Assembly (NCBI RefSeq): GCF_003610235.1
Contig: NZ_RAPR01000001.1
Span: 8,246,001-8,310,000 of the forward strand
Direction of reading: 5' to 3'
Source of the DNA: Catellatospora citrea
GTDB lineage: Bacteria > Actinomycetota > Actinomycetes > Mycobacteriales > Micromonosporaceae
DNA length: 64,000 bases
The notes below the pieces were generated by a model. The model saw only the letters and a list, made by a program, of their open reading frames with translations. It was not told the origin of the DNA and made no database searches. A program made the translations under genes and the position numbers. Positions 1 through 11,477 of this stretch are shown here, piece after piece (the stretch's first letter is position 1; the number at the start of each line of letters is the position of its first letter).

Positions 1-3000
1 ACCCCGAGCACCCCGCGTACGTCATCTACACCTCCGGCTCCACCGGCCGGCCCAAGGGCGTGCTGGTCACCCACCGGGCGATCGGCAACCAGCTGGCCTG
101 GTCGCAGCGCACCTTCGGGCTGCACGCCGCCGACCGGATGCTGCAGCTCGCCCCGGCCACCTTCGACACCTCGGTGTGGGAGCTGTTCTGGCCGCTGACC
201 GCCGGTGCGGCGGTGGTGCTGCCGGAGCCCGGCGCACAGCACGATCCCGCCGAGCTGGCGGCGCTCATGCGCGTCCACCGGGTCAGCGCCGCGACGTTCG
301 TGCCGTCCATGGTGGAGGCGTTCCTGCTCGCCGACGACGTGCTCGCCGACACCTCGTGGGCCCGCGACCTGCGCTGGGTCTCCTGCGGCGGTGAGGCGTT
401 GACCGGTGACCTGGCCCGGCGCTGGGCGCAGGCGACCGGCACCCGCCTGGACAACTTCTACGGGCCCACCGAGACCGCGGTGCAGGTCACCTGGTGGCCC
501 AACGACGGGGAGCACGGCGCGGCCGTGCCGATCGGCGGCCCGGTCGACGACACCGGGCTGCACGTGCTCGACGACTGCCTGCGCCCGGTGCCCGTCGGCG
601 TGCCCGGCGAGCTGTACGTCTCCGGCGCGCAGCTGGCCCGCGGCTACCTCGGCCGCGCCGCGCTCACCGCGTCCCGGTTCGTCGCGGACCCGGCCGGCGC
701 GCCCGGCGAACGCATGTACCGCACCGGCGACCTGGTCGTCCGCGACGCCGACGGCACACTCACCTACCTGGCCCGGACCGACCACGAGATCAAGATCCGG
801 GGTGTACGCATCGACCCGGCCGACGTCGAGTCATGGCTGACCAGCCGTCCCGACGTCGGCCAGGCCGCCGTGATCGCCCGCGCCGACGGCCCCGGTGTCC
901 GGCTCGTCGCCTACGCGGTCCCGGCCGCCGGACGCGTGCTCGACCCGGCCGCCCTGCGCGACGCGGCTACGTCCGCGCTGCCCCCGGCCCTGGTCCCGGC
1001 TGTGTTCGTCGTGCTCGACGCCCTCCCGCGTACCGCCAGCGGCAAACTCGACCGCGCCGCCCTGCCCGCCCCCCACTCGGCGTCCCCGCGCCCGACGTTC
1101 CTCGATCACCCGACCTCGCCGACGCCGGTGTCCCTCGATCACCCGACTTGCCAGGCATGTGGGCGAAAGCACGCCCAAGATACGCACGAGTGCCAGGCAA
1201 CTCCGACGATCACCGGCGAAGTCGTGACCGGACCGGTCGCGACGCTGTGCGAGATCGTCGGCGCGGTCCTCGGGGCCGCGGCGGTCGGGCCGGACGACGA
1301 CTTCTTCGCCCTCGGCGGCGACAGCATCCTGTCCATCGGCGTGTCCAGCCGGGCCCGCCGAGTCGGGCTGCCGGTCAGCCCGCGCGACGTCCTCGCCGCC
1401 CGCACCCCGCGCCGCCTGGCCGAAGTCGCAGCAGCGGCGGGCATCCAGCCGCCGCTCCACAGCACCGATGAGGTGGCCAGGACATCGGGGAGGTCGTCGC
1501 ACACCGACTCGTCCGCCACGGCAACGGTCACCGGACCGGTCGCGGCAGGTCCGCTCATCCCCGGTTCGGCGGGCCCGGCCTCGGCGAGCGGCGCGGCCAC
1601 GGCGGGTCCGCTCGGCGCCGGTCGAGCGAGTCTGGCGTCGGCGAGCGACGGAGCGGCAACCGTGCCCGCGGGTGACGGCGTCGGCGACGTGCCGTTGCTG
1701 CCGATCGTGCATTGGCTGCGTGACAGCGGTGCGGCGATCGGCCGGTTCGCGATGCCGATGCTGCTGGTCACCCCTGCCGGGGCGGACCAGCGGTCCATCG
1801 CCGCGACGCTGCAGACCGTGTTCGACCACCATGACGGCCTGCGACTGCGACTGCAGCGCATCGCGTCCGTGCTCTGGACCCTGCGCACCGAGCCCGCCGA
1901 CACCCTGACCGCGACGGACCTGCTGGTCCGCGTCGATCTGTCCGGTGTGGACGACGGCGCGCTGCCCGGCCTGCTGGCCGAGCACGCCGCGACGGCCACC
2001 GCGCTGCTCGACCCCGACGCGGGCACGATGCTGCGTGCGGTCTGGTTCGACGCGGGCGATCGTCCGGGCCGCTTGCTGTTGGCCGTGCACCACCTCGCCG
2101 TCGACGGCGTGTCCTGGCGCATCCTGTTCGAGGATCTGGCCACCGCCTGGCATGCGACCACCTCGCGCACTGCTGTGGCACTGCCGCCGGTGGACACCTC
2201 ACTGCGCAGGTTCGGGCAGGCCATCGCGGCCCAGGCCCAGCAGCCCCGGCGTCTTGCCGAACTGGAGCACTGGGCGCGGACCCTCGCCCCAGGAGCGGAC
2301 CTGCTATCAGGCGCGGTCGTTCCCACCGGATCGCCGACCGGGCCTGCCACGCTGACTGGAACTGTCGCGCCGGTCGGAACCACGACGCCCACCGCAGTAT
2401 CAGCCGCTACGGGCGCTACCGGCGAGCCGGTCAGCCGGATCACTGTGCTGCCCGCCGAGGTGACGGTGTCGCTGCTGGCAGCGGTGCCCGCGCTGGGCGG
2501 CGAGATCACTGACGGTCTGCTCGCCGCGCTGGCCACCGCGGTGCGCGCCTGGCAGGAGCGGCACGGCCGGGCGACCGGCGAGCTGCTGGTCGACGTGGAG
2601 CGGCACGGGCGTGAGCAGGTGGAACCTGACCTGGACCTGTCCCGGACCGTCGGCTGGTTCACCAGCGTGCAGCCGGTCCGGCTGCCGGTCGCCGACGCCG
2701 ACCCGGTCGCGCTGATCGCGGCCGTCGGCGAGCAGGTGCGGGCGGTGCCCGACGGCGGCATCGGCCACGGCATGCTGCGCCACCTCAACGCGCAGACCGC
2801 GCCGCTGCTGGGCCGCCTGGCCACGCCGCAGGTGCTGTTCAACTACTTCGGCCGCTTCCCGGCGGCGACCGGCGCGCCGTGGTCACCGGCCCCGGAGTCC
2901 GCCGCGATCACCCCGGTCAACGGCGGTCTGCCCGCGACCCACCTGCTCCAACTCGACGTCGTCGCCGCCGAGGGCCCACACGGCACCACCCTCACCACCA

Positions 3001-6000
3001 CCTGGACCTGGCCCTCGGGCACCCTCACCGACACCGACCTCACCGACCTCGCCACCCACTGGCACGACGCCCTGACCGCGCTGGCGACCGCCGCAGGCGA
3101 CGTGCAGTTGCAGGGAAACAGCACGAATGACAGACCGCTTTCCCGCAGTTTCCCCGAAACTGCAGCGCTGGTCGTGTTGACGGATGAGGAGGTGGCGCGG
3201 CTGGCGGTGGTCAGTCCGGGGCCGGTGTCGGAGGTGTGGCCGTTGTCGCCGCTGCAGGAGGGGTTGTTCTTCCACGCCAGTTATGACACGGCGACGCTGG
3301 ACGTCTACACCGGACAGGACGCCTTCGACCTGGGCTATCGGGTCGACGTGGAGCGGCTGCGGCGTGCCGGGCGGGTGCTGCTGGACCGGAACACGGCCAT
3401 GCGTGCCGGGTTCACCAGTGAGGGGCTGTCGCGGCCGGTGCAGTTCGTGGCCGACGGCCTCGATCTGCCACTGACCGAGGCCGACCTGTCGAACCTGACC
3501 GAGGAGCAGGCGGCGGCACGTACCGCGGAGCTGATGGCCGCGGACCGGGTCGCCCGGTTCGACCTGGCCCGGCCGCCGCTGTGCCGGATGCTGCTGATCC
3601 GGATGCCGAGCGGCCGCGACCGCCTCGTCATCACGCACCACCTGATCCTGTGGGACGGCTGGTCCGAGGAGCTGTTCGTCGAGCAGCTGTTCACCCTGTA
3701 CGAGCGGGACGGGGACGCGACCGGGCTGCCGGTGCCGGGTTCCTACCGCGATCACCTGGCGTGGCTGGCCGCCCAGGACGAGCAGGTGGCCGCCCTGGCG
3801 TGGCGCGAGGCGCTGGCGGGGCTGGCCGAGCCGACGCTGATCGGCCCGGCGGACCGCACCCCGGCACCGGCCGTGCCGCAGCGGGTAGAGGCGGTGCTGC
3901 CCGAGCATTTCAGCGACCGGGTCCGCCAGGTGGCGCGGGCGCACGGGCTGACCCTGAACACGGTGCTGACCACCGCGTGGGGCCTGACCCTGGGCGCGCT
4001 GACCGGCCGTCCTGACGCGGTGTTCGGCATGACCGTCGCCGGGCGGCACAGCGAGGTCGAAGGGGTCGAGGACGTCATCGGCCTGTTCCTGAACACCGTC
4101 GCCATGCGGATCGCACCGGTGCCCGGCGAGCGGGTCGGCGACCTGCTGGCCCGGGTGCAGGACCAGCGCCTGGCGCTGATGCCGTACGACCACGTCGGCC
4201 TGGGCCAGGTGCAGCGCGACAGCGGGCACGCGACCCTGTTCGACACCCTCTACGTGCTGCAGAACTTCGTGGACGAGGACGGCAGCGCCGACCTGCGCGC
4301 CCGGCACGGCATCGAGGCCGTCGACGGCGTCGACGCCACGCACTACCCGCTGACGCTGGTGGTGACGCCGCAGCGGGCCATCCGGGTGGCGCTGGACCAC
4401 CGGCCCGACATCGTGGACGGCCCGGCCGCGCAGGCGGTGCTGGACCGGCTGCTGGCGGTGCTCGACCGGCTCGTGTCCGACGTGGACGCGCCGGTGCGGG
4501 AGCTGGATCTCCTCCTGCCGGGCGAGCGTGCGGCGCAGACCGCCGAGTGGGCGCGCACCGAGCACGACATCGGCGAGCTGACCGTCGCGGACCTGCTCGC
4601 CGAGCAGGCCGCCCGGACGCCGGACGTGACCGCGCTGGTCGATGGGGCGCTGACGCTGAACTACGCCGAGTTCGACGCGCGGATCAACCGGATGGCGCGG
4701 CTGCTGCTGTCCCGTGGCGCGGGCCCGGAGACCGTGGTGGGCCTGGCCCTGCCGCGCACCGTGGACATGGTGGTCGCGCTGTTCGCGGTGCTGCGCACCG
4801 GTGCGGCGTACCTGCCGCTGGAGCTGGACCTGCCCGCCGAACGCCTCGGCTTCATGATCGGGGACACCGCGCCGATGTGCGTGCTGAGCACGTCCACGGT
4901 CGCCGACCGCCTGCCGGGCGGCCTGGCGAACCTGGTGCTGCTGGACGACGCGGACACCCGCGCCGAGCTGGCGGCCCACGCCGGTGGGGACCTGGCCGAC
5001 GCGGAGCGGCCGCTGTTCGCGCCGGGGGTGGCGGGGCGGCTGGACCACCCCGCGTACCTGATCTTCACGTCGGGGTCGACGGGCCGTCCGAAGGGCGTCG
5101 TGACGGCGTACCGCGGCCTGACGAACATGCAGCTCAACCACCGGGAGGCGATCTTCAACCCGGTGATCGAGGCCGCGGGCGGACGCCGCCTGAAGGTCGC
5201 GCACACCGTGTCGTTCGCCTTCGACATGTCGTGGGAGGAGCTGCTCTGGCTCGTCGAGGGCCACGAGGTGCACGTCTGCGACGAGCAGCTGCGCCGGGAC
5301 GCGCCCGCGCTGGTGGCGTACTGCGACCGGCACGGCATCGACGTCGTCAACGTGACCCCGACCTACGCCCAGCACCTGATCGAGGAGGGGCTGCTGGCCG
5401 ACGGGCCGGGCCGGCACCGGCCGCCGCTGGTGCTGCTAGGCGGTGAGGCCGTCTCCGACGCGGTCTGGGCCGCGCTGCGCGACACCCCCGGCACCCTGGG
5501 CTACAACCTGTACGGGCCGACCGAGTACACCATCAACACCCTCGGCGGCGGCACCCTGGACAGCGACACCCCGACCGTCGGCGCGCCGATCTGGAACACC
5601 CGCGCGTACGTGCTCGACGCGATGCTGCGCGAGGTGCCGCCCGGCTCACCCGGTGAGCTGTACATCGCCGGCATCGGCCTGGCCCGCGGCTACCACCTGC
5701 GCCCGGACCTGACCGCCGAGCGCTTCGTCGCCGACCCGTTCGGCGCGCCGGGCGAGCGCATGTACCGCACCGGTGACCTGGTGCGCCGCCGCGCGGACGG
5801 GAACATCGACTTCCTCGGCCGCACCGACGACCAGGTCAAGATCCGGGGTTACCGGGTCGAGCTGGGCGAGATCGAGTCGGCGCTGGGCACCCACCCGGCC
5901 GTCGCGCACGCCGCGGTGATCGTGGACAGCTCCGGCGACGGCGCGAAACGGCTGGCCGGATACGTCGTACGCGGCCCCGGCTGGGACGGAACCGACGAGG

Positions 6001-9000
6001 TCGTGCTGCCCGCGCTGCGGGAACACCTCAAGCGCACGCTGCCCGACTACATGGTGCCCGCAGCGCTGATGGCCGTGGAGCGCCTGCCGCTGACCGTCAA
6101 CGGCAAGCTCGACGTACGCGCCCTGCCCAAGGCGACCGTGGTCACCGGCGCGGCGAGCCGCCCGCCGGCCACGCCCGCCGAGCAGACCCTGTGCGAGCTG
6201 TTCGCGCAGCTGCTGGGCCTGCCCGCGGTCGGCGTCGAGGACAGCTTCTTCGACCTGGGCGGCCACTCGCTGCTCGCGATCCGCCTGGTCAGCCGGGCCC
6301 GCACCGCGCTCGGCGCGCAACTGTCCATCCGGGACCTGTTCGAGGCCCCGACCGTGGCACAGCTCGCCGCCCGGATCGACCCGGCCGCCGCCACCGCGCG
6401 GGCCGAGCTGGTCGCCCGTCCCCGCGAGGGCGCGCTGCCGCTGTCGGCGGCACAGCAGCGACTGTGGCTGCTGGACCAGCTCGCGGGACCGTCGGCGGCG
6501 TACAACTTCCCGCTGGTCGTCCGGCTGCGCGGCCCGCTGGACCGGGCCGCGCTGCACGACGCCCTGCACGACGTGGTGGCCCGGCACGAGTCCCTGCGCA
6601 CCGTGTTCACCACGGTCGAGGGCGAACCGCACCAGCACATCCTGCCCGCCGACCAGGCCCGCCCGGTGTTGGACCTCGTCACGGCTGCCGATCGTGCCCC
6701 CGCGTCGGGCGTGGCGCAGCTGATCGACGAGGTGCTGGCACGGCCGTTCGACCTGGGCAGTGAGTTGCCGCTGCGCGGCACGCTGATCGAGGCCGGCCCG
6801 GACGAGCATGTGCTGGCGCTGCTGCTGCACCACATCGCGACCGACGAGTGGTCCGACGGCCCGTTCCTGCGCGACCTGGCCACCGCCTACGAGGCCCGCC
6901 TCGCCGGGCACGCCCCGGACTGGACGCCGCTGCCGGTGCAGTACGCCGACTACACACTCTGGCAGCGCGACCTGCTCGGTGACCCCGGCGACCCGGCCGG
7001 CCTCGCCGCCAAGCAGCTCGCGTACTGGACGAAGACCCTGGCCGGGGCGCCCGAGGAGCTGACCCTGCCCACCGACCGGGCCCGTCCGGCGGTGCCGGAC
7101 GCCCGCGGCGGCTCGATCTCCCTCGGCCTGCCCGCAGCCGTGGCCGCAGGCCTGCGGGAGCTGGCCGCCCGGTCCGGCGCGAGCATGTTCATGGCCGCGC
7201 ACGCGCTGACCGCGGCGCTGCTGCACCGCCTCGGCGCGGGCGACGACCTGCCGCTCGGCGCGCCCATCGCCGGACGTGGCGAGGAGGGCCTGGACGACCT
7301 CGTCGGGTTCTTCGTCAACACGCTGGTGCTGCGCACCGACCTGACCGGGGCGCCGTCGTTCACCGACCTGCTGGCCCGGGTCCGCGAAACCGACCTGGCC
7401 GCGTTCGCCAACGCCGACGTGCCGTTCGACGCGGTCGTGGAGGCGGTCAACCCGGCCCGCTCACCGGGCCGCAACCCGCTGTTCCAGGTGATGGTCGTGC
7501 ACCGCAACCACACCGGCGACTGGTCCGGCCTGGCCGGGCTGGAGGTCTCCGACGAGCCCCTGGACACCACGACCGCCCGGTTCGACCTGGTCGTGGAGCT
7601 GCTCGACGGTGCGGACGGCGAGCTGGAGTGCCTGCTCACGTACCGCAGCGCGCTGTTCGACCGGGACACCGTGCAGCTGCTCGGGAGGCGGCTGGCGCGC
7701 CTGGCCGAGGCGGTCTGCGCCGCGCCGGACCAGCCGCTGGCGGACCTGGATCTGTTCGTCGACGGCGAGTTCGACCAGGTGCTGCGCGGGTTCAACGCGA
7801 CCGCGCGGCCGGTGGCCGAGCTGACCCTGCCCGAGGCGTTCGCGCTGCGGGTGGCGCGGGCACCGGAGGCCGTCGCGGTCGTCGACGGCGAGCGCGAGGT
7901 GTCCTACGTGGAGCTGGCCGCCCGCGCCGGGCGGCTCGCGCGGGTCCTGGCCCACCAGGGCGTACGCCCCGAGAGCGTGGTCGGCGTCGCCGTGCCCCGC
8001 TCGCTGGAGACCATCGTGACCGTGCTCGCCGTCAACCGGCTGGGCGCCGCGTTCCTGCCGCTGGACCTCAACCACCCGGCCGACCGCCTCGCGTACATGA
8101 TCGAGGATTCCGGCGCGGCGCTGGTGGTGACCACCGGCAAGGCCAAGGGCCTGCTGCCGGAGACGGCCACGCCGGTGCTGGTGCTCGACGACATCACCGA
8201 CGTGACACCGGTGCGCCCGGTGCTGCCCGCGCCGCATGGCCTGGACCACGCCGCGTACGTCATCTACACCTCCGGCTCCACCGGCCGCCCCAAGGGCGTG
8301 ACGGTGTCGCACGAGGGCATCGGCAGCCTGGTCGAGACCGCCGTCGACCCGATGGGCGTCACCGCGGACAGCCGGGTGCTGCAGTTCGCCTCGATCGGCT
8401 TCGACGTGTTCGCGTTCGAGGTGTCGATGGCGCTGTGCACCGGGGCCGCGCTGGTCGTCACGCCCGACGAGGCACGCACGCCGGGCGCGGCACTGTCCGA
8501 GCTGCTGTACGCCCACGGGGTCACCCACGCGATCCTGCCGCCGTCGCTGGTCTCCATCCTGCCGCCCGACGCCGACCTGCCTGAGGGGCTGTGCGTGCTG
8601 GTCGGCACGGAGACGGTGCCCGCCGGCCTGATCAACCGCTGGGCCGGGCACCTGAAACTGTTCGCCGCGTACGGCCTCACCGAGGCCACGGTCAACTCGA
8701 CCCTGTGGCGGGCCGTGCCCGAGTGGGACGCGCCGGTGCCGATCGGCCGCCCCGACCCGAACACCCTGGCCTACATCCTCGACGAGCGGCTGCGGCCGGT
8801 TCCGGTCGGCGTCGTCGGTGAGCTGTACGTCGGCGGTCGCGGCCTGGCCCGCGGTTACCTCGGCAAGCCGGGCCTGTCCGCGCAGCGCTTCGTCGCCGAC
8901 CCGTTCGCCTGCCCGGGGGCGCGCATGTACCGCACCGGCGATCGGGCCCGCTGGAAGGCCGACGGCAACATCGACTTCCTGGGCCGGTCCGACAACCAGG

Positions 9001-11030
9001 TGAAGATCCGCGGCTTCCGGATCGAGCCGGGCGAGATCGAGGCCGTGCTCGCCGGGCACGACACCGTGCGCCAAGCCGCCGTGGTGGCCGACCGCACCGG
9101 CGACACCACCAGGCTCGTCGCGTACGTGTCGCCCGACGGCCCCGCCGACCCGGCCGTGCTGCGCGCCCACGTCGGCGCGGTGCTGCCCGAGTACATGGTG
9201 CCGTCGCTGGTCGTGGTGCTCGACGGGCCGCTGCCGGTCAACCCCAACGGCAAGGTCGACCGGCGGGCGCTGCCCGCACCGGACTGGGGCTCGCTGGCCG
9301 GTGACGCCAAGCCGCTCACGGCCCGACAGCACCAGCTGGCGGAGCTGTTCGCGGAGGTCCTCGGCCTGCCCGAGGTCGGCATCCACGACAACTTCTTCCA
9401 CCTCGGCGGCCACTCCATGGCCTCGATGCGCCTGATCGGCCGCGTGCGCACCGCCCTCGGCGCGGACCTCGCGATCCGCGACGTCTTCGACGCCCCGACC
9501 GTCGCAGAACTGGCCGAACGCCTCGACCGCGCCGTCGCGGGCGACCGCCCGCAACTGGTCCGCGCCGTGTCGACCACCGTCGACCCACTCGGCACAGCCA
9601 GGGCCACCGGCCACGACGGCACCCTTCAGGACGCCACCGTTCAGGACGGCACCGGATGGAACGGCACTGGCCAGGGCGGCACCGGCGGGCTTGCCGATCG
9701 GCTCGCGCCGGTGCAGCTGCACCCGTGGGGGCTGCATCGGGTCGTGGACCGGCCGGGCTGGGACATCGCGTTCGCGGTGCCCGCCTCCGAACTGGACGTG
9801 GTGGCGCTGGAGGCGGCCCTGCGGGACGTGATCACCCGGCATCAGCCGCTGCACACCGTGACCGGCTCCGACGGCGCGCCGCGCTGCGTGCTCGGCGAAC
9901 GCGTGCTCGAACCGGTCGCCGACGACGGCACCCCCCTCGCTCGGCGCCTCGACGCGCTGGCCAGGGAGACCGTCGACCTGACCGAGCGTCCGCCGCTGCG
10001 GGCGCGCCTGGTCATCGGTGCCGACGAGCACGGCACGCCACAGCGGGCGCTCCTGCTCACCACCCACCACCTGGGCGTTGACGAGTGGTCGGTCGTCCCG
10101 CTGCTGCGCGACCTGGCCACCGCCTACCAGGCACGGCAGCGGGGAGCGGCTCCGGACTGGCAGCCACTGCCGGTCGACTACGCCGACTACACGCGGTGGG
10201 CGTACGCCCTGCTGGGAGACCCGCAGGACCCGGCGAGCCGGCACGCGCGGCAGCTCGCGCACTGGCGCGACACCCTGGCGGGGATGCCTGACCTGGACCT
10301 GCCCGCGGATCGAGCCCGCGACGGGGTCGTGTCGCGGCGCGGCGAGACGGTCGAGTTCCTGCTCGACACCGACCTGCACCGCGGCATCGACGAGCTGGCC
10401 CGCCGCACCGGCACCAGCATGTTCATGGTGGTGCAGGCCGCGTTCGCGACCCTGCTCACCGGGTACGGCTGCGGCACGGACCTGCCCGTCGGCAGCCTGG
10501 TCGCGGGCCGGACCGAGGAGGCGCTGACCGACCTGGCCGGGTGCTTCTACAACACCGTCGTCATACGCACCGACACCTCCGGCGACCCGTCGTTCAGCGC
10601 GCTGCTCGACCGGGTCCGGGCCACCGACCTGGCCGCGCTGGACCACCAGGACGTGCCGTTCGCTGCCGTGCTCGACGCCGTCGCGCCGGGTGTGGACGGG
10701 CCGCGGGTGATGGTGGTGCACCACGAGGAGGCCCGTCTCGGCGACGGCGCGCTGCGCTTCGACCAGATCCCGACCGGCACTGTGCGCGCCGAGCTGACCG
10801 TCAGCTTCTACGAGCCCGCCGGAGACAGCCCGGTGCACGTGGAGCTGGAGTACGCGACGGCCCGTTTCGACCGGTCAACCGCGCAACGGATCGCCGCCGA
10901 CCTGGTGGGCGTGCTCACCGCGGCGGTGGCACGGCCCCAATCGACCCTGTCGGGGCTCGCCCCGGCGACCCCGTTCGCAGAGTTCCCGCCGGCCCCGGCC
11001 GGCACCGATGTTCAGGAGATGAAGCAATGA
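1..11030 (+). CDS. Non-ribosomal peptide synthetase, 3' part (A-T-E-C-A-T-C-A-T-C), 5' end outside window
   Basis: Cytoplasmic NRPS assembling a peptide, probably a hydroxamate siderophore. The frame is open from base 3 and its start lies left of the window. Visible order: A1 from core A3 ([11 protein letters not shown]) to about 1075; T1 (GGDSI, carrier Ser codon 1323); epimerisation domain about 1690-3110 (HHLAVDG at 2088); C1 about 3220-4550; A2 about 4560-6110; T2 (Ser 6267); C2 about 6430-7780; A3 about 7800-9275; T3 (Ser 9414); a last C domain about 9690-10970. No thioesterase. The hand-read A2 pocket is DMENLGLINK, the known N5-hydroxyornithine signature. A1 (about DTWTSGFVQK) and A3 (about DVFILGAVNK) I cannot assign. 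E after T1 implies a D residue there. Oddities: C1 has Leu where the second motif His should be; C2 and C3 read HHxxxDE; a palindromic repeat is translated in the A1-T1 linker; low-complexity linkers flank the E domain and the last C domain. The stop overlaps mbtH (ATGA). Confidence 0.97.
1137..1213 (+). repeat. Imperfect palindromic repeat inside the NRPS frame
   Basis: Two imperfect inverted arms (gatcacccgacttgccaggca on the left, its near complement on the right) enclose a spacer. The reverse complement of the whole element matches the repeat at 11278-11358 along most of its length, including tgcgtatcttg and ttcgc in the spacer. A direct repeat, ctcgatcacccgac, occurs at 1101-1114 and again at 1135-1148 at the left edge. 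It lies in the linker between A1 and T1 and is read through in frame, adding a short Cys/His-rich stretch ([15 protein letters not shown]). Confidence 0.75.
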
Positions 11031-11245
11031 CCAACCCGTTCGAAGACGCCGACGGCCGCTACCTGGTGCTCGTCAACGACGAGGACCAGCACTCGCTGTG
11101 GCCCGCGTTCGCGGCCGTCCCGGCGGGCTGGCGCACCGTGTTCGGCGAGGACACCCGCGAGGCCTGCCTCGCCTACGTCGAGACCCACTGGACCGACCTG
11201 CGCCCGCGCACCCTGCGCGAACGCATGGAGGCCGCCACGGCCTGA
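11027..11245 (+). CDS. mbtH: MbtH-like protein
   Basis: A 72-residue MbtH-family chaperone that binds NRPS adenylation domains and supports their folding or activity. It has the family hallmarks in order: [20 protein letters not shown] at the N terminus, QHSLWP, PAGW, CL.YVE and WTDLRP.TL near the end, at normal family length. The ATG overlaps the NRPS stop by four bases (ATGA), so it is translationally coupled to that gene. This coupling makes it the dedicated partner of the NRPS. A long palindromic repeat follows 32 bases after the stop. Confidence 0.97.
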
Positions 11246-11277
11246 CCGGCCCACCGCCCGACCAAGGTCGCGACCAT

Positions 11278-11358
11278 GGTCATCCGACTTGCCGGGCACC
11301 TGTGCGTATCTTGCACGTTGATTCGCACAGGTGCCCGGCAAGTCCGGCGATCATGACC
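11278..11358. repeat. Long inverted repeat after mbtH (21-bp perfect stem)
   Basis: Arms 11286-11306 and 11324-11344 are perfectly complementary (gacttgccgggcacctgtgc as core), with a 17-base spacer and further partial pairing out to ggtcat/atgacc. The spacer carries tatcttgcac. The element is homologous to the one at 1137-1213 in reverse orientation. It could end the NRPS-mbtH transcript, but it has no T run and its second copy is inside a gene, so a dispersed repeat family is equally likely. Confidence 0.8.
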
Positions 11359-11370
11359 AGGTCACCGGCC

Positions 11371-11436
11371 ATGATCTGCTTTCGTGGACGCTAGGCGTTG
11401 CTGTAGCGACATCCAGCGTCCACAGAAACAGATCAT
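11371..11436. repeat. Second long inverted repeat, mbtH-araC gap
   Basis: Arms 11371-11392 and 11415-11436 pair at 19 of 22 positions (atgatctg...tggacgct) around a 22-base spacer. It sits 12 bases after the repeat at 11278-11358 and about 40 bases before the AraC-type gene. Its sequence is different from the first repeat. It may be an operator for the downstream regulator or another dispersed repeat. Confidence 0.7.
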
Positions 11437-11477
11437 GGAGGCACCGGCACGCCGGCGGTGCGTGCTTCAATCAGTTC

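Follow-up and report, generated by a model that had tools for sequence, protein, structure and literature searches.

How does a palindromic repeat that lies between genes come to be read, in frame, as part of a protein? This question is raised by a 64,000-nucleotide stretch of the Catellatospora citrea genome (the window), in which an initial annotation had placed a dispersed palindromic repeat both within an NRPS frame and after mbtH. Here, we confirmed this observation, which is stronger than first stated; both copies belong to one family of about 83 bp. The reading that we favour, at a probability of roughly 70%, is that a genus-specific MITE/REP-like palindrome was inserted in frame long ago and has since evolved, inside a protein gene, largely as DNA.

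Two copies of one palindromic element at an NRPS locus

The NRPS gene occupies positions 3..11030 of the plus strand, and the window holds the C-terminal 3675 aa of an open frame which comprises 5452 aa in the genome. The coding copy of the element (1133..1215, plus strand, 83 nt; arm core 1145-1203) lies between AMP-binding_C (PF13193; 825..1046, plus strand, residues 275-348), the A-domain end, and the carrier (T) domain (PF00550; 1242..1424, plus strand, residues 414-474), and it translates to 27 residues with the Cx2C-x3-H-x4-H-x-C spacing that had been noticed at the outset. The original placement in an A1-T1 linker had to be revised: the window cuts the NRPS, and counted on the orthologue in genome G010, which has four A-T linkers, this one comes second. 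The left end of the element is partially duplicated in direct orientation (1101..1147, plus strand), with CTCGATCACCCGAC at both 1101-1114 and 1134-1147, and this duplication, at a 33-bp spacing, was not seen among the other orthologues aligned. The intergenic copy (11274..11356, minus strand; arm core 11286-11344) follows mbtH (11027..11245, plus strand, PF03621), carries the CAAGATACG motif on the minus strand and begins about 40 nt past the stop of the MbtH protein gene. Positions 1137-1212 and 11277-11352 form an ungapped inverted match of 76 nt that is 76% complementary and ranked first among the inverted pairs of the window, and no Rfam family matched within the window at gathering score.

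When each window copy was used as a BLAST query against its own genome (G000), dozens of further places were obtained, with the best non-self match at an E value of about 1e-23 among the 40 candidates scored for each. The family pattern, GACTTGCCNGGCA-N33-TGCCNGGCAAGTC with at most three mismatches, found 78 copies in the C. citrea genome, while its reversed version, used as the control, found 0; an asymmetric pattern of one arm plus a TATCTTG motif found 90 places, again with 0 for the control. The BLAST searches of both copies and the pattern counts ruled out an ordinary protein repeat or a chance match, and the proposal of a dispersed REP-like palindrome with other genomic copies was upheld. 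On contig G000:C1, which covers 8.9 Mb of this genome, no match to the asymmetric pattern occurred before position 888,575, and the element is seemingly absent from the first tenth.

The unit measures about 81-83 bp, with GATC-containing ends and the arms GACTTGCCNGGCA and TGCCNGGCAAGTC, and one side of its centre bears a conserved CAAGATACG; the family is multicopy, and its small inverted-repeat unit contains no gene. No covariation was detected in arm columns 8-11, a point against our favoured reading. The frame that is used in the NRPS is open in 71 of 76 C. citrea copies and in 58 of 66 copies of genome G002, and for the matching reverse frame the counts are 75 of 76 in C. citrea and 56 of 66 in G002.

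We found that the repeat is confined to Catellatospora among the genomes searched. All 11 genomes of the genus carry it, with 24-142 copies each and the most (142) in G002. In the rest of the taxonomic family, surveyed as 354 genomes (the 11 of Catellatospora and 343 others), three of the 343 showed one weak match each with two to three mismatches, and the control pattern matched five others; in other families of the order, none of 50 genomes outside the genus gave a match at two mismatches. The exact element pattern occurred in 18 stretches of the named collection, all from Catellatospora, including C. paridis, C. vulcania, C. methionotrophica, C. sichuanensis and C. coxensis. Many of the listed matches in G004, G008 and G009 belong to a subtype with GAGTTGCC arms. 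At the level of titles and abstracts, in a search whose coverage excluded most subscription papers, we found nothing on this repeat of Catellatospora.

Placement, turnover and the search for a mobiliser

We placed the 78 C. citrea copies with a purpose-written codon-usage gene caller. All are intergenic except the NRPS copy, the only one inside a coding sequence, and the 77 intergenic copies lie between 25 convergent, 40 tandem and 12 divergent gene pairs. In the tandem pairs, 36 of the 40 copies are closer to the upstream stop than to the downstream start (median 46 vs 126.5 nt), and the intergenic copies may serve as hairpins at the 3′-ends of genes. With the known NRPS copy left out, 66 of the 67 G002 loci examined carry the element, always in intergenic positions, and the one without it lies at a contig end.

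The site after mbtH differs between species. The element is present there in C. citrea and G010, is truncated in G001 (28 copies), and was not found in G002, G003, G005, G006 or G007, all five of which have other hairpin-like sequences at this place as judged by eye; that of G002 and G007 is another GATC-ended palindrome, with a GATCGNNGTNTCGTGTCG arm. At a site near 8.43 Mb, a copy is common to C. citrea, G010 and G003, and G001 has neither the copy nor some of the flank. We saw no cleanly empty site that showed a target duplication; at the one G001 site aligned, extra flank is missing as well. G001 combines a truncated mbtH copy and the absence of one copy shared by its relatives with a retained NRPS copy, and it is perhaps a species that is losing the repeat.

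Further palindromes were noticed during this analysis. A second dispersed family, GATC-ended with a ATGATCTGYTTYYGTGGACGCT arm, lies directly after the mbtH copy at 11369..11438 (strand not assigned) and at L098, L172 and L293, giving four clear copies in the sequence examined. A third GATC-ended family, with the GATCGNNGTNTCGTGTCG arm, occurs at L066, L096, L157 and L158. All three families end in WGATC...GATCW, and judging from these shared ends, they may use one mechanism.

A search for a REP-associated transposase had been proposed at the outset, and we looked for Y1_Tnp (PF01797) in the genus. It was present in 6 of 11 genomes and was not found in G002, the genome richest in copies, and the sole match in C. 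citrea (L147, on G000:C3) contains an internal stop, TAA. This distribution ruled out a RAYT-driven REP. Clustering of the genes that neighbour 78 C. citrea and 66 G002 copies revealed no recurrent transposase-like gene, the largest cluster being five SDR-like proteins (named by eye). A gene between closely spaced copies was also rejected as the mobiliser: the pair about 1.1 kb apart represents one orthologous locus, and the remaining closely spaced pairs examined enclose different genes. The element would seem to be mobile, and we count the missing mobilising gene in the Y1_Tnp and neighbour-gene searches, along with the lack of a cleanly empty site, against our favoured reading. At the locus of the 1.1-kb pair, a REase_MTES_1575-like gene (PF18741, 21.4 bits, below the cut-off of 38.2) is flanked by two elements in G000, G005, G002 and G007 (L026, L309, L310 and L311), with the orientations of the pair kept across the four genomes.

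Clade-wide change and the codon make-up of the coding copy

Orthologues of the NRPS, with open frames of 5316-5452 aa, were identified in 8 of the 11 genus genomes, C. citrea included; the other three showed NRPS matches at the level of paralogues only. In each of the eight, the element occupies the same A-T linker and points the same way, with the frame open throughout. A single base of the element distinguishes two clades of the genus. Counted as half-elements with an intact arm, so that one element may score twice, the ratio of GATACGCAC to GATACGCCC was 54:5 in C. citrea, 70:12 in G005, 66:13 in G003, 42:6 in G010, 41:6 in G006 and 7:1 in G001, against 8:89 in G002 and 5:94 in G007, with 0:1, 0:2 and 0:0 in G008, G004 and G009. 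The NRPS copy carries the majority type of its genome in all eight cases, an agreement that a single change on the tree would account for. C. citrea and G002 have 11 intergenic sites in common at which both flanks match; ten of them are A-type in the former and C-type in the latter, and the elements at these sites are about 64/83 identical on average, compared with 63.6 for random between-genome pairs. Two further shared sites, A in C. citrea and C in G002, are uninverted and have kept a clear sequence likeness.

Six of the 11 shared sites scored as inverted; orientation was judged by similarity to a reference of 20 nt, and weak cases may be misassigned. In the clearest of them, L093 compared with L210, the flanks and arms align while the 11 central bases are reversed, with 9 of 11 matching once inverted, and a 9-mer from this centre is absent from all remaining copies in both sets. 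No inverted centre appeared in 13 intergenic pairs between close species. Paired changes in the arms numbered 8 against 2.7 expected, four of them from pair to pair. As described in PMC8604942, template switching between inverted-repeat arms homogenises the arms and inverts the spacers, also in coding sequence; the cases described there are single short yeast repeats with inverted spacers of a few bases, while here a multicopy bacterial family and 11 central bases are concerned. By analogy, template switching would fit the arm changes and the inverted centres. It does not explain the clade-wide variant, for which copies would have to exchange sequence, be replaced by new insertions or follow a co-evolving partner.

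The coding copy has an unusual codon make-up. Over the eight sequences, 37% of its codons end in A or T, compared with 4.3% elsewhere in the NRPS, and none of 4665 other windows of the gene was as high (highest 15.7%). Where the C. citrea copy has an A/T-ending codon, this ending is shared on average by 7.6 of 8 species for the five element codons, as against 2.66 of 8 for 166 codons elsewhere, and it is kept in all eight species at 3 of 5 versus 2 of 166 positions. The amino acid varies in 13 of 25 complete element columns and in 1232 of 4902 columns in the rest, while columns with an invariant amino acid show silent variation in 3 of 12 and 1653 of 3563 cases, respectively. Low silent variation alone is modest evidence, as 242 of 4665 windows show no more of it; only 1 of 4688 other windows matches the element both in the number of amino-acid changes and in the scarcity of silent ones. 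As single-stranded DNA, the mbtH copy folds strongly (z -10.0) and the C. citrea coding copy weakly (z -1.5, with 14 of 200 shuffles as good). Mismatches of the NRPS copies to the arm pattern number 0 in three orthologues, 1 in four and 2 in one, so that, together with the weak folding, the hairpin is not strictly kept within the gene. On the basis of these codon patterns, the coding copy is best read as evolving more as DNA than as protein.

Could every copy, that in the gene included, instead be held by selection as a functional DNA or RNA site, such as a bidirectional terminator or a protein-binding site? The strong conservation of the arms and of CAAGATACG, the location just past stop codons and, by eye, the hairpin-like sequences present after mbtH in relatives that lack the element there agree with such a role, and the clade-wide base change could track a co-evolving binder. 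However, the tandem copies are oriented at random with respect to the genes (22 to 18), G-T and A-C mismatches in the arms are about equal (162 and 178), copy number ranges from 24 to 142 between species, one of which seems to lose copies, and the coding copy of C. citrea folds weakly. We regard a functional site as doubtful, and its form as a one-strand RNA hairpin is ruled out by the random orientation and the nearly equal mismatches.

The Cys/His pattern raises a further alternative, namely that the coding copy was domesticated as a small metal-binding, zinc-knuckle-like module of the A-T linker and is kept for the protein. Six orthologues have C-x2-C-x3-H-x4-H-x-C, while G002 and G007 have C-x2-H-x3-C-x6-C, so that four columns remain Cys or His in all eight NRPS copies, with two C/H swaps between the clades. 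The combined pattern C-x2-[CH]-x3-[HC]-x6-C is present in 8 of 8 NRPS copies compared with 3 of 129 open family copies, all four columns being Cys/His in 1 of 71 open C. citrea copies and 2 of 58 open G002 copies. Moreover, the coding copy is more alike between close species (mean 78.4/83, 5 pairs) than are orthologous intergenic copies (73.5/83, 13 pairs). The retention of these residues suggests selection on the protein, though the tree holds just two Cys/His states, and in nearly all open copies two of the four columns derive from the conserved arms (71 and 69 of 71 in C. citrea; 58 and 58 of 58 in G002). The variable amino acids in more than half of the columns and the A/T-ending codons retained despite available synonyms also speak against domestication, which, as far as the sequences tell, is unlikely to be the main explanation.

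Origin of the linker insertion and relation to known systems

By one rule of measurement, the A-T linker that contains the element is 77 residues long in C. citrea and 64 in G010, whose other A-T linkers have 38. In the 120 outside homologues listed of 916 scored, none of 712 A-T linkers was longer than 44 residues and the median was 38; the peptide motifs of the element were absent from all 120. Because the outside linkers are shorter and free of the motif, we take the insert to have been gained, as about 27 extra codons, by the common ancestor of these species, and the proposed in-frame insertion relative to homologous NRPSs holds good. A recent insertion is ruled out, since all eight orthologues found carry the element in the same linker. 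Of the two features named beforehand as speaking against a mobile element, the linker is indeed conserved among the orthologues of the genus, but a lack of other genomic copies was not found.

The insert might also be a former intergenic repeat trapped by the fusion of two genes, as family copies usually lie just past stop codons, where a fusion would catch one. Yet in the 120 outside homologues the A-T linkers run on without a break and never exceed 44 residues, so that the continuous module is the common state and a fusion origin is very unlikely. Chance similarity of two GC-rich stretches has a negligible probability, being excluded by 78 copies against none for the control pattern.

Taken together, these results are most consistent with an old in-frame copy of a non-autonomous MITE/REP-like palindrome, of which the window holds two members. 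One copy would have entered the second A-T linker of the NRPS before the eight orthologue-bearing species diverged, adding about 27 codons without a stop, which the open frame predicts to be still translated. Survival of the insertion would have been easy, because the unit is short, its frame is mostly open whichever way it is inserted, and the length of A-T linkers is variable. Later, template switching between the arms and family-wide homogenisation may have reshaped it at the DNA level, seemingly with the coding copy included. More tentatively, the palindromes of the genus could evolve as a unit, with flips of the centre and a clade variant at fixed sites, and rewrite the NRPS linker by DNA-level rules, after which the Cys/His pattern was perhaps kept as a metal site; we consider this extended reading possible and less probable than not.

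In either form, a piece of probably mobile DNA is now part of a protein and is kept in several species. The host protein is a modular synthetase, and its linkers are of interest for engineering. The eight orthologues and the non-coding family act as internal controls, in which the evolution of a coding copy can be followed beside its non-coding sisters, and the flipped centres and the clade-wide variant at shared sites make concerted evolution of short bacterial repeats directly testable.

Several known systems resemble this family in part, as far as the available portions of the cited sources describe them. The inverted repeats inside protein genes of Nematomorpha mitochondria (PMC6649704) are like the coding copy; apparently they have no dispersed family shared with intergenic sites, as the Catellatospora element has. 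MITEs (PMC10969869) are likewise small, non-coding, inverted-repeat and multicopy, whereas here neither a parent transposon (by neighbour-gene clustering) nor a target duplication (at the one site aligned) was found. REPs and REPINs with RAYT (PMC3733652; see also PMC2817692 and PMC3116915) are also numerous dispersed palindromes downstream of genes, some within genes, but REPs measure 20-40 bp and have a GTAG or CGTC tag and a RAYT, while the present element has about 83 nt, consensus ends that contain GATC (read by eye) and no fitting Y1 transposase.

The Rickettsia palindromic elements (RPEs; PMC10969869) are group-restricted palindromes as well, with in-frame members translated in protein genes, and like them the Catellatospora element has an open frame that lends itself to insertion (71 of 76 C. 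citrea copies). RPEs have about 150 bp and lie in ORFs in nearly half of the cases; here, the unit has about 83 bp, belongs to a different phylum and, unlike the RPE type, lies in an ORF in 1 of 78 C. citrea copies and 0 of 66 G002 copies (known NRPS copy left out), the likeness being one of description. Translated palindromic repeats of Rickettsia are a reported way for selfish DNA to make new protein, of which this locus would offer a case in a high-GC actinomycete. By analogy, the element appears RPE-like in kind and REP-like in placement.
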